This document shows, piece by piece, positions 8,301 to 14,300 of a stretch of 64,000 nucleotides of DNA. Every line of letters starts with the position of its first letter. Within the stretch, counting starts at the first letter, position 1. Source of the stretch: Sycon ciliatum (lineage: Eukaryota > Porifera > Calcarea > Leucosolenida > Sycettidae); NCBI RefSeq assembly GCF_964019385.1, contig NC_088650.1, positions 27,494,466 through 27,558,465 of the forward strand, written 5' to 3'. A model generated the notes under the pieces. The model had not been told where the DNA came from. It saw only the letters and a list, made by a program, of their open reading frames with translations, and searched no databases. Both the position numbers and the translations under genes were made by a program.

Positions 8301-11300
8301 TACGAGTAGGGTTGCCACCTTCACAATGACTTGTGTTACCATCAGCAAGCTAAATGATAACATTGTCCTTTTCACACATATCTCTTGTAATTGGGGTACA
8401 CACCAGTCAATGGTCTATGGTTACCATGGATACAACTAGGTATCCATGGATATTGTACGGTTTAAAATATTCGGAATATTCTTCGTTTCACACGTATTCG
8501 GAAAAAGAATATTCGTTCGCTTCATTGAGCATTCAGTTTGCAGAGTTGCACACTCTTGGGGGGGGGGGGGGGGTTATTAAACTCTTGGTAATAGCATGTG
8601 AAATGTCCTGGGAAGACTACAGCAGTCTTCCCAGGACATTTCACATGCTAGTACCAAGAGAATAATAACCCCCCACATGGGCGTAGGAACCGGTCCGGCA
8701 GGCCCGGCGGTCGCCGGACCAATAATTTTCGATTTTTTTTTTTTTTTACATTTCAACCTTGTTGATTGCTTGTCGACTCTTGTACAGGTACAGTCAAATC
8801 TGTCGTAAGCGACCGCCCCTTGGTGCAAGAAAAAGCGGTCGCTTACGGCAGATGTATGGTAAATCCGGCATACCAGGTATATGCTTCCATGTACTCAAAT
8901 CGACGAGAATAATGTGATTTTTAATATCATTTTATTGGATATTCAACGACGACCATACCCGTATTACGCGTATGCGACACGGCAGTAGATCGACACTGCC
9001 TGGACTTGAGAGCTACAGCACAGCCTCAGTACAGGCCAGGCGCCAGTCGATCGCACTTGCAAGACAGCGCATTTTCACACTTTGCAGTTGACAGCGCACT
9101 GGCAAGTACAGTTTCGCACCTTACTGAACCTGGGTCGCGGTCGCTTACAGCAGATTTGAATGCAGCCACCGTGCATGAAATCGCGGTCACTGGTCGCGCA
9201 CTGCAGATGGTCGCTCTGGACAGATCAGTTTGTATGTGAAACCGTCGGTGCACGGAAAATCGGTCGCTAATTTCCCATTTCGCTAGCAATGGTACATTGT
9301 GACGGGAAGTGGGAGTTGTGCTAGGAGCTGAGAGCGAGATATAACAGTGTATTGCCTATGACGTCATAAATATCCAACCGGAACTTCACAGCATGAAAAA
9401 ATAAAATCACGCAACCACATCACTACAGTTGCCTTTTTTAGTGAAGCGAGACTACGGATATGTGACAGGAAAAAATGAATCATTCCCAAAATATCCACCA
9501 ACCCATAATGGGAGGGCGGGTGGGACACTGTTATATCTCGCTCTCAGCTCCTAGCACAACTCCCACTTCCCGTCACAATGTACCATTGCTAGCGAAATGG
9601 GAAATTGCGCATCGGAGCTTCAAGCTTCGATATAACAGTGTATACTTCAAAGCGCACACGACACATAAACACACGTGGGATAAACATATTCATTCCCATG
9701 CATGGATAACATTCTAGTCACGGGACAGGCACCTAAGTGTCCTGATAGCAGCAGGTCAGGCTATAGCCCAAACCCCGGAGCTGAGAACGGCTGCACTGTA
9801 AGTGGCTGCTGCCGCTGATGCCAGGACCCCCCCCCCCCCCCCGGAATGACCCTAAGAGGGAGGGCTACGTGCTGTCCGCCGTACGCCACGATGCGGAGCG
9901 CGAAACCTACGCCAACACACATGCTGTACCGAGCAGAGCTCCGGTACTGGAAAAGGCGCGAAACACACCTGCTAGAGAGGCAAAGCCCAGTCTTGAGCCA
10001 ATACGATGAACAGCATCCGCCAGTCCAGACCTCCTCTGGCACTAATATCCACACTGCCGCTATGCTGAGTAGCTGGTGTCCGGTCCGTGACCGTCCTGTT
10101 GCTCTGGTGGGGGAAGCATCCGGCTTCGGTTAGCATAGCCACGACCGGCTTGGCTACATTGAGTCTGGTTGTACGGGCTGGTGTAAGGCTCGTACCGGGA
10201 GCCACCGCCGTACCTGCTGACCCCAGTACCTCGGAAAAACTGGCGTTCACCCGCTGACGCCCCTCCAGAGCCAGACTTGCTGTCGCTCGACTGCGGAGGA
10301 GCTCGAGCGTCCTTGTATTGTTTCACAACCAAGCCCAGCGCCTCCTGGGACTCTGCCTTGGACTGGATACGCTCCAATAGTTCCGGGCCGAACAGGGCCG
10401 TGCCCGCTTTATCAAATGGCTCCTCCGCCATGGGTACCAGGCTCTTATCTAGATGCTCTAGGAACTCCTGGCGCCTCAGCACCGAGAGCTTACTGTTGGC
10501 ATTGCCCAGCAGAGACAAGCCAGCCGGCACCATGTCCAATACAGCTTGCGGGTCTAGGCCTGCACCAGCGTCCTGCGCTGCCTTGGCCTCCATCATCAGG
10601 GCAGAGAGAGGACCCAAACAATCCAATACGCTGCTCTGTAGCGAGTACAACATGTTGTCCCGCGACCTCTTGAATGACTGCCTTACACCAGGTAAATTCA
10701 GCACCTCATGGTCTAGTTTAGGTGTGACCGCCACGTCCACCTCTGGTCGGGAAAACCGCTCTACTAGGTCCCTGCGCTCCTTGCCCTTCAAGGGCTTCCT
10801 GAAGCGAGTCTGAAGGAACTGTTTTATATCTGAGGACACCGGAGCATGCTCCGGGTCGTCCGTGCTCACGTCCACACACGAGGGTACCTGCCCACTCGTG
10901 GTGTCGTTCAAATCAGCATCACTCGAGCAGGCCTGCCCACTCGAGGAGCTAGGTGGAAGCAACAAACTTCCACCTGACAAACCAGACTTGGGCATGCCCA
11001 AGGAACTGGCGATTTCCCGGGGTTGAGTGCCTGCACTCAACCTGGAAAGTTTTGGCTCCGATCCATTGGACTGCGAGGACTGGCCCCTGGCCAGATCCCT
11101 TCTACATTCCGCTGTCGCTTCCAAAGCACGTAGACGATCATTGATCGGAGCAAGGAGATCCATAACGGCTGATGAAACAGCTTGCCGGATTGAGTTTTCA
11201 TCCATCTCTAATCGCGAGAAGAAGAGCTCAGATTTTCTAAATCACTTCGTATCGAGCGGAAATAAAAAAGGCAACTGTAGTGATGTGGTTGCGTGATTTT

Positions 11301-14300
11301 ATTTTTTCATGCTGTGAAGTTCCGGTTGGATATTTATGACGTCATAGGCAATACACTGTTATATCGAAGCTTGAAGCTCCGATGCGCAACGGTAGATGGT
11401 CGCCTACAGCAGAGGTCGCTAACGGCAGATTTGACTGTACCATGTTTTACATCGACAATGCGGTGTATCATCAGCATGCATATTCTTATTTCTCATATTA
11501 TTCTGTAGCATTAAAATTAGGGGTGAAACGGTTCCATGTTTTTCATGTTCGGGTACCCGAATGCCAGCATTGTTGCCCACGGTTCGGGTATCGGTTCCAT
11601 GCATTCTTTTCTCCAGACCGACAAAATGCGTTCGCGACAATTAATTTTTAGAAAAAACATTTTTACGAGCAAGAATGAGACATCGGAGAGTCCAAGTACT
11701 TAAGTGCGAAGAATATAATGACCAGAGAACTCTTTGGAAGAGTGAGGATCGTAAGGTAAGACATTTAAAATCTTTGGTAGACTTGACGTGTACATGTATT
11801 TGTACAAGACCAGGGTTTTTTCGAGTTTCGGTTCGAAATTTGACGGAACGGGTACCCGACTCTTTTCAGCTGGCGGTTCCAAAACCGGTTCCTTACCCGA
11901 ACCGTTTCACCCCTAATTAAAATATGGCCTTTTAGGCCCAATTTAAAAAAAAAATCACGGGGGAGGACCCCCGGACCCCCCCCCCCCCCCCTCTCACAAT
12001 TTTGCCGCACCAATATTAAACTGCTTCCTACGCCCCTGCCCCAAGAGTGTGCAACTCTGCATATGGGGCCTCCGACGGCGAAAACTAACATCACGTGTCT
12101 CAGGTACGTTTCGTACTACGTACAAACGAAGGATAGCGTGCGTACAATCCGAATATCTGCCATGATCATGCTGGGTATTTGCACACGCGCAGCGAGTTTC
12201 TGTCAGAGAGTGCTTTTATATTACTCCACTGTTCGCTAAAAACTGGCTGGAAACGTACAACTGCGACACTACACCACATGATGTGAGTTTTCACCGTCGG
12301 CGTACCCCATAGAAAAGGTATCAGGAGCTGCACACTCTTGGGGGGTTACCGTAAAGTACCGTTGATCCCCCCCCCCCACACCATGTCGCTTCCCAGCTGG
12401 GTTTTCGGCAGGGGGCGGGAATTAGATCAAGGCTGTCAAGTGCAGTACGATGTACAGTAGTGGCAAGTGAAATCCAACACTTGGCATAAGGGACTGCACC
12501 ATGCAGTCTGCAGCCCCTGCAGCCCTGCATACGTACAGTACATGTGTTACATACAACTTTTTCTGTCTGATGACAAAACTCGTACCCATCACAGTCAAGG
12601 TTAAAAAGGTGATGGCAAAAATGAATGGGGATTGGATACCAATACTCCTTATGTGTACCATATTTGTGAACTGTGTGTATCTACGCTGTGACCTTTCGCT
12701 CTGTTTGGGATGCATACGGCTCTATAGTACAAATTAGGTGCAGTGCATTACATCATTACTGTCCATTTGTGGCGCTGTCCCCCATGGCAAGTGTCGGATT
12801 TCACTTGCCACAACTGTACAATAACATAGAAGTTCAGACTCGATGTGCTGGATTGTGCACATTTTCATCCTGGATTGGCAAGTATTGTGTACAGCAGTGC
12901 ATGCGTCGGTTCAACATCGTATTTTCGTTGTATACGCCGAAGTCGCTTCACAGGTAGAAAATCGACAGGGGGCGGGAATTAGAGAGGGGGCGGATCAACG
13001 GTACTTTACGGTACTGTATATCACCTTATTTTCGGTGTTGTAAAATTTCGGTAAAAGCCAGCCCCTGACCTTTCGGTGTAAGGATAAATTCGGTATGCAT
13101 GGCACCAAAAAAAAAAAAAAAAAAAAAAAAAACGGCTCTTGCACTACCGGTAATATCTCCGGCTAGGCTCCACATATCATTTTGTTACAGTATGTACTAG
13201 TATACCGGTATGTACATGTACGTACATGTACATGTACTATACCAGTATACAAGTTGATTTTTTTTAATTTGACAATGATTTTCATGATTTTTACATATTT
13301 TTGGTATTTCGGAAAATTTAGGTGTAATGTTAAATTAGGTGATCTAGGACCAGTACCGAAGTTACCGAAATATAAATTACACCGAAATAAAGGTGTTATA
13401 CAGTATATACTTGATAGTACATACCCGGTATCTACACGTAGGATCTACAGCTGCGCTCACTGAAAGCTTCTCCACGACATGAAAAGAGCAACTTGAAGAA
13501 AGAAAGAAAAAAGAAATGCCGAAACCCGGGATTGAACCAGGGACCTTTAGATCTTCAGTCTAACGCTCTCCCAACTGAGCTATTTCGGCTGCATACTTCC
13601 TTTAATTTCTGATATGTAGAACAAGAGAGAAGAATACTAGAGACGTACCATTCCATCGACTGTGATTGAAGAACCAATAGCGTCCACCTTCGTAGTTCAC
13701 AAAGATCATGATGATAAGTGACAGCCTGGAGAGAGAGAAAATAAACATATGCGTACAACTAGTAAAAATACAGTTTAAGGCGACCACTCGGATAAGGCGA
13801 CCACCTGTCCTAGAAGACCACTGAAACCAGGACTAAGGGATGGTATTTCCAGTCAAATGACTCTGGATAAGGAGACCACCTGGTAACAGAGACCACGTTT
13901 TGAAGGTCCCTTGAGCGGTCGTCTTAGGCAGGCTTCACTGTACACACATGTACATACGCAATCTTCAAAGTCCTTACACAAGCAAATACGCGCATGCACG
14001 CACACGAGCATACACACACAACTGACCCGCGGAACGTGTCCAGCGATCGCAAGCGCTTCTTGAGTCGTTTTCCCCGCGGTGGTGTTGATGCGTCGTTTCC
14101 CTACAACAAGAACATGATGAGCATGTCTGGTTACTGTACTTGCACTTGCACTGGGGCAAGCAAACTTGCAACGTACATGTACTAATGTTATGTCTGGCCC
14201 TAAGGGCCCACACACAGCATTACTCAGGTTCGTACAGTTATTGTAATAATCAAGGAACAGAAAGACAAGGAAAAGAGAGCTCACATTCTCGGACCTAGTC

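Follow-up and report, generated by a model that had tools for sequence, protein, structure and literature searches.

The window analyzed here is a stretch of 64,000 nucleotides (nt) from the calcareous sponge Sycon ciliatum (assembly GCF_964019385.1, contig NC_088650.1, positions 27,494,466 to 27,558,465 of the forward strand); all coordinates below are positions within it. A complete gag-only retroelement of the DIRS1-like type, 2121 nt long, was located at 9269-11389 on the minus strand. Its extent was set from inverted repeats, from the reading of the empty insertion site and from five other uninterrupted copies with identical ends. In the sense direction the left terminus begins at 11389, a gag-like open reading frame (ORF1) runs from 11205 to 10060, an internal complementary region lies at 9643-9525, at the 3′ end of the sense strand as in DIRS1, and the right terminus ends at 9269. 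All features of the element described below lie on the minus strand.

The conserved parts of the two inverted terminal repeats (ITRs), 103 nt each, were placed by repeat pairing at 11263-11365 (left) and 9338-9440 (right). The 24-nt outer part of the left terminus (11366-11389), the divergent ITR, starts with TTG, is complementary to a portion of the left complementary region and was partly alignable with 9314-9337 at a score reached by 31 of 2000 shuffles. The outer part of the right terminus comprises 69 nt (9269-9337), which were divided in this analysis into ∼45 nt of right extension and 24 nt of divergent ITR using published definitions (PMC3266345). The complementary region is composed of a left part of 39 nt (9605-9643), the exact complement of 11351-11389, and a right part of 82 nt (9525-9606), the exact complement of 9269-9350, with 2 nt shared between them; a spacer (9441-9524) separates it from the right ITR. 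The 119 nt of 9525-9643 are exactly the reverse complements of 9269-9350 and 11351-11389 less the 2-nt overlap, as the original prediction had stated, and neither arm extends further. The three inverted-repeat pairs (103, 82 and 39 nt) are each 100% complementary, and arms this long and exact within 2.9 kb are not plausible by chance. A 13-mer was present in both ITRs and both halves of the complementary region and nowhere else in the window. No direct-repeat family paired the termini, and the split direct repeats typical of PAT-like, Ngaro and VIPER elements were not found. An Rfam search of 8500-12500 returned zero matches.

ORF1 (10060-11205) encodes 381 amino acids (aa) and is intact. It is 83% identical to the ORF that precedes reverse transcriptase (RT) in two larger relatives from the same genome (L010 and L011), aligned in two pieces (73% and 88%) with a third (L009) and was 56% identical, with many breaks, to a fourth (L012). 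It is also 46% identical over 347 aa to ORF1 of a second DIRS family of the same genome. The frame was identified as DIRS ORF1 from its homology to the RT-preceding ORFs and is called gag by position; the ORF1 of DIRS1-like elements is described as without clear homology to retroviral gag (PMC4495291). The original prediction that terminal repeats, complementary region and an intact gag-like frame had all been kept was confirmed by the perfect repeats and the open ORF.

The element was scanned against Pfam. The scan covered two sense frames in full, the frame of gag as far as 9644, part of one antisense frame and, among antisense ORFs wholly inside the element, the seven with at least 60 aa. 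No match to RT/RNase H, methylase, recombinase or any other domain was found in the scanned frames. The same library detected a recombinase remnant 29 kb away in the window and is therefore able to see such domains. The predicted loss of RT, methyltransferase and recombinase stood at the level of domains and was amended at the level of sequence, as the stretch after gag still holds remnants of RT and recombinase. The 416 nt after gag had also been considered as unrelated sequence, a reading rejected because of these remnants. Searches of viral contig, genome contig, phage and plasmid collections, all non-eukaryotic, returned no relatives.

The insertion site was read by joining the flanks through a single AA. 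This gave GGTCGCTAACGG..., a short host repeat that is also present intact on the plus strand at 11414-11433. The restored repeat supports the element ends independently and shows that no target duplication was made. Insertion without duplication at a short shared site was seen at the window copy and, less exactly, at a second copy (L002, contig 1). The left end is TT in all six uninterrupted copies (L001-L006), and on the right the terminal dinucleotide varies (TT, AT, GT, TC, TT and TC); the crossover seems to keep the bases of the circle on the left and those of the target on the right, a full match not being needed. An unoccupied copy of the host repeat that carries L002 lies in the window at ∼7931-8077, and it aligns with the occupied repeat across the point of insertion, apart from a few gapped bases.

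The host assembly (538 Mb, 313 contigs) was searched for further copies. As 40 of 238 candidates from the DNA search were scored, copy counts are lower bounds. Twenty-two loci were compared (L001-L022), eight being the best matches and 14 chosen by hand from the match list. Among these, at least 13 copies carry one identical deletion junction. At least six (L001-L006, the window copy included) are complete and uninterrupted, with lengths of 2110-2124 nt, identities of 97-100%, the same ends and different sites. The complementary region was present in all six, with 0-1 mismatch in the 39-nt part and 0-5 in the 82-nt part. The reading as a lone dead deletion, which the original prediction had named as its alternative for a single copy with the breakpoint, is ruled out by the many junction copies and the six uninterrupted ones at separate sites. 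No mismatches were found between the repeats of the window copy and some were found in L002-L006, which places the window copy among the youngest. In two further copies (L007 and L008) the right ITR is interrupted by an insert of ∼0.9 kb.

Dead, internally deleted copies could also have been spread by segmental duplication of the host rather than by transposition. Such duplication does occur in this genome for a gag fragment on contig 11. The six uninterrupted copies share their ends and have 1.5-kb flanks that do not match one another, except that L002 sits in the host repeat also found unoccupied in the window; the window copy, too, interrupts a host repeat, and the sequence of that repeat without the insertion is readable. 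Segmental duplication was graded as already largely refuted on these grounds and is given only a very slight chance. On contig 11 itself (29.52-30.00 Mb, the contig ending at 30.05 Mb) the left part of the element was found inside segmental duplications at six loci (L038-L043). There 24 codons of gag (72 nt) recur as in-frame repeats, with between 0 extra units (L042) and 20, of which one unit is partial (L040), and one frame is open over 7523 codons. This may be a satellite or an emerging repeat protein.

Larger relatives with RT and a tyrosine recombinase, on whose existence the original prediction depended, were recovered. They carry the same gag followed by matches to RT, a Dam-like methylase and tyrosine recombinase, and two of the four near-complete ones (L009-L012) keep both ends. 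A search with the RT-to-recombinase stretch, in which all 24 candidates were scored, gave these four near-complete copies at 96-100%, two partial relatives, the second family at 66-68% and short pieces. In L010 separate frames matched RVT_1 (1e-23), Phage_integrase (4.6e-9) and Dam (1.1e-3); L009 gave a Dam match of 9e-5, both Dam values being below Pfam's own cut-off. In L011 a single open frame of 1074 aa, located behind an open gag frame, contains the matches to RT, Dam and integrase. The right end is missing in L011 and L012, and L009 and L010 have both ends, a gag shifted near its start and interrupted later frames. Gag-only junction copies (at least 13) outnumber the near-complete sister copies (4). 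The second family has long open frames after an open ORF1. One of its members, L036, has an open ORF1 and then a long open frame between perfect 165-nt inverted repeats (772-936 and 6034-6198) that lie outside its own termini; this is perhaps an insertion into a host palindrome.

The DIRS circular-junction signature proposed in the original prediction is in agreement with the terminal geometry, which fits DIRS1-like elements, and with the tyrosine recombinase carried by relatives with the same ends. That the element is some other inverted-repeat element might be argued from a gag without a database match. Against this stand the exact circle-junction region and the fact that relatives sharing these ends gave matches to RT, a Dam-like methylase and tyrosine recombinase, and we regard the probability of a non-DIRS origin as close to negligible.

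The losses were traced by alignment with these relatives. The start of the RT frame ('...AQDWALPL') remains at 9975-10059, of which 9975-10025 aligns with L009-L012 upstream of a deleted 2.4 kb, the rest being a shortened stretch. The main deletion junction is a 7-nt GCCTCTC at 9975-9981, identical in 13 of the 22 compared loci (L001-L008 and L017-L021). Positions 9822-9981 comprise what is left of the tyrosine recombinase (9841-9981) and the scar that a second deletion has left (C-tract 9827-9843, homology resuming at 9822). The gag-only form fuses the RT start ('AQDWALPL') to the middle of the recombinase at the 7-nt repeat. The second deletion removed ∼215 nt, the catalytic end of the recombinase, which is absent in all 13 junction copies. 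The tract at this scar, read as G on the sense strand, has between 5 and 24 G in the 13 copies and is possibly a slippage marker of copy lineage.

Other loci retain more at the site of the main junction: 2434-2455 nt in L009-L012, 1064 in L016, 597 in L013, 332 in L014 and 251 in L015, the junction region being missing in L022. The stretch directly behind gag measures 84 nt in L009-L012, 62 in L014 and L015 and 32 in nine of the 13 junction copies; it is 38, 27 and 44 nt in L005, L020 and L021, and in L018 it is interrupted by an insertion. L014 and L015 have in common an exact junction of a smaller deletion that falls within the main one. The catalytic-end deletion is present in L014, as in the 13 gag-only copies, and not in L015. 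Synonymous distances from the window copy are 0.131 for L014, 0.204 for L015, 0.253 for L016 and 0.562 for L011. Read simply, these losses would have proceeded from RT and part of the recombinase to the recombinase end and then to the rest, an order with which the synonymous distances agree.

The deletions and the tree of the 3′ region both give the order L016, L015, L014, gag-only (with weak ultrafast bootstrap support, UFBoot, of 84-90 in the 3′ tree), and the gag tree, in which 10 of the 13 junction copies were placed, has L014 as sister (UFBoot 100) but L016 nearer than L015 (90). A strict order of loss from the trees is not clean, and the conflict could reflect recombination or noise. The deletion might instead have arisen separately in several copies at a hot spot between the 7-nt repeats. 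GCCTCTC stands on both sides of the missing 2.4 kb in the relatives (with one mismatch on one side in L009-L011), so that recurrence is possible, and the 3′ tree sets one junction copy, L019, beside L014 (UFBoot 47), for which reason the likelihood accorded to recurrence was raised slightly. The 10 junction copies of the gag tree nevertheless form one clade (UFBoot 84; 100 with L014), and all 13 also share the second deletion. Recurrent deletion is considered very unlikely.

Conservation between the window copy and its larger relatives is concentrated at the ends. The outer ends are identical to those of L009 and L010 (39/39 and 82/82, 121 nt), and in L011 and L012 the left end matches at 32/33 and the complementary region at 38/39 or 39/39 and 81/81 or 81/82. 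Elsewhere the matches with L009 and L010 are 83/101 and 82/101, respectively, in the inner part of the left ITR, 50/58 in the 5′ leader and 139/181 in the 3′ region, and only 36 of 84 bases of the spacer are alignable. Between the gag of the window copy and those of L009-L011, synonymous divergence (dS) was 0.56-0.58 (0.57-0.58 for L009 and L010) and nonsynonymous divergence (dN) 0.08-0.09, with their ratio (omega) at 0.13-0.16. In the second family, with its 46% identical gag, the complementary region is 110/119 identical. The circle-junction module has thus changed very little from one family to another, which is what recognition by shared enzymes or by the splint reaction would predict; that families have exchanged their ends is a less probable explanation.

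Selection on gag was assessed with omega values from three-point estimates, out-of-frame stretches being masked in L014, L015 and L016 (88, 47 and 58 codons). For the branch of the window copy since the L015 split omega was 0.18 (0.09-0.38), with dN equal to or above dS in 0 of 1000 bootstraps. Since L014 it was 0.33 (0.13-1.28), with 41 of 1000, a result that masking of the out-of-frame codons had weakened. Changes were also counted in 12 family copies as synonymous:nonsynonymous, giving 8:9 for those shared by two or more copies, 8:7 for those private to four intact copies and 12:49 for those private to five broken ones (L003, L004, L006, L007 and L008). The combined shared and intact-private changes (16:16) differ from those of the broken copies (p = 0.004, Fisher test), a contrast that excludes changes private to L020-L022 because their frames are suspected to be misaligned. 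Nine copies contain the whole gag (L001-L008 and L018), the 381-aa frame being open in L001, L002, L005 and L018, and in this set the counts were 6:8 shared, 9:7 intact-private and 13:49 broken (combined 15:15, p = 0.007). These estimates indicate that gag is under purifying selection, with omega ∼0.1-0.55 depending on the branch, and lend moderate support to the view that such selection continued once the enzymes had been lost.

Termini, complementary region and gag frame have been kept in this family, RT/RNase H/methylase and recombinase have been lost through shared deletions, and the resulting form has multiplied at separate sites. The likely explanation, in our judgement, is a DIRS1-like family that is non-autonomous, having retained a gag of its own while taking RT and recombinase from coexisting larger relatives. 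The element would be transcribed from its own ITR, and its RNA would be packaged by its own gag and copied by the RT/RNase H of coexisting DIRS1-like elements. The complementary region would then act as a splint on which the ends are restored and joined into a circle, the junction reading GGGAAATTGCGC across the outer ends. A tyrosine recombinase supplied in trans by the helper would insert this circle at a site of two bases, and the target would not be duplicated. Since gag seems to be under selection where the enzymes are gone, the element may depend on its own gag and not only on a borrowed one, a point for which support is moderate.

Several observations weigh against this explanation. Among the four near-complete sister copies, both ends were in no case found together with all frames open, and confidence was reduced because no sister copy was seen with all parts intact; a possible helper with long open frames was found in the second family alone, and the end module of that family matches at 110/119. 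The gag has no convincing match in Pfam, NCBIfam, PHROGs or PDB (best PDB E-value 0.29), and two AlphaFold models of it, made without an alignment, reached mean confidence scores (pLDDT) of 41.6 and 42.4, too poor to be used. It is intact in only four of the nine whole-frame copies. The strictest interval, after L014, is borderline: over five choices of copy and outgroup, including outgroups L015 and L016 and copies L005 and L018, dN was equal to or above dS in 10 to 199 of 1000 bootstraps. Shared changes alone against those of the five broken copies gave p = 0.031 with 12 copies and 0.10 with nine, and shared against all private changes gave p = 0.29 (0.35 in the nine-copy set). The intact-versus-broken grouping was chosen after the data had been seen. 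The case as a whole is read from genome sequence.

Much of this bears on the alternative that the machinery is borrowed and gag is a passenger, its apparent conservation arising from young copies and from refreshing by strand transfer. The small divergence within the family (dS 0.007-0.05), the broken gag in five of nine whole-frame copies, the borderline branch test and the weak test on shared changes alone are all compatible with a passenger, and the disagreement of the gag and 3′ trees on the order of L015 and L016 could mean recombination. The family gag is, on the other side, too distant from those of L009-L011 (dS ∼0.56-0.58) to have been refreshed recently from these copies, and nonsynonymous and synonymous changes stand at ∼1:1 among shared and intact-copy changes against ∼4:1 in broken copies. 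A passenger gag is regarded as fairly unlikely.

A more far-reaching form of the borrowing explanation is put forward tentatively, at somewhat below an even chance. The family may be a long-lived gag-only DIRS lineage that, once RT and recombinase were gone, persisted while further deletions followed step by step (in types like L015, L014 and the 2.1-kb family), and in which selection keeps gag and the rest outside the 121-nt module drifts. Gag would be a case of 'bring your own capsid', and the 39- and 82-nt ends would be a full identity card for foreign DIRS enzymes. The weaker result of the nine-copy test on shared changes lowered the probability given to this proposal.

Other features of the window were recorded. 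A broken tyrosine recombinase lies at 40318-41395 on the minus strand in two separate open stretches (DUF3504, 7e-9; Phage_integrase, 1.6e-6); we take DUF3504 to be Crypton-related and label the remnant Crypton-type on that assumption. A Gypsy-like gag-pol remnant at 14186-16882 gave matches to RVT_1 (3e-21) and protease (1.9e-6) and a weak zinc knuckle, and is flanked by identical 190-nt direct repeats (14186-14375 and 16693-16882). The window also contains a CCDC47 gene (1.2e-59), by which the host genome is animal-like.

Comparison with known systems places the element closest to DIRS1-like retroelements. It shares with them inverted termini with an unequal outer part, a complementary region located toward the 3′ end and composed of two halves that overlap, ORF1 as the first frame after the left terminus and the lack of a target duplication. 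The halves of 39 and 82 nt compare with 40 and 82 in NveDIRS6b and with 33 and 71 in BfDIRS2, which has the junction AA, and the 13-nt motif compares with one of at least 10 nt common to all four repeats in DIRS1-like elements (PMC3266345). The other sizes fall within the ranges given in the same source: 103 nt for the conserved ITR (31-304), ∼24 for the divergent ITR (9-36), ∼45 for the right extension (9-75) and 119 for the complementary region (85-130). The junction overlap is 2 nt where 3 is usual, as also in 2 of 28 published elements, AmDIRS1 and BfDIRS2 (PMC3266345). The length of 2121 nt is below the 3793-6283 nt of the 28 annotated elements in Table 3 of that source (PMC3266345). As coding for RT, RNase H, methylase and recombinase was not found in it, the element was filed as a non-autonomous DIRS1-like derivative and not as an autonomous member.

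Gag-only retroelements are represented in plants by TR-GAG elements, which to our knowledge have no complementary region and no tyrosine recombinase. TR-GAG elements are likewise non-autonomous with gag as the only ORF, differ in their Copia-type long terminal repeat (LTR) chemistry with direct LTRs in place of inverted termini, and include one element seen transposing in Arabidopsis ddm1 (PMC8704663). SIRE, the non-autonomous form of VIPER, is also a derivative of a tyrosine-recombinase retroelement, but as far as the accessible text goes it consists of ∼435 bp of terminal and short internal sequence with split direct repeats, and gag is not mentioned (PMC6681497). TRE5-A.2 of Dictyostelium, a non-LTR element, is similarly without ORF2 and relies for its movement on ORF2 protein supplied in trans by its autonomous partner (PMC5633606). 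In the open-licence literature, covered in part and with Repbase outside the search, no description of a gag-only or otherwise non-autonomous DIRS element was found, and SIRE/VIPER was the only non-autonomous tyrosine-recombinase system.

The DIRS replication cycle, with its splinted circle and recombinase insertion, is still described as a model in the parts of the literature consulted. An element that has in nature been cut down to its termini, a complementary region and a gag shows what sequences may be enough for spread, and the identity of the 121-nt ends despite a gag dS of 0.56 points to the part that has to match. A gag-only strategy is known among plant LTR elements, and the family would carry it over to the recombinase retroelements of an animal-like genome; it also lets one ask whether such parasites need a gag of their own.

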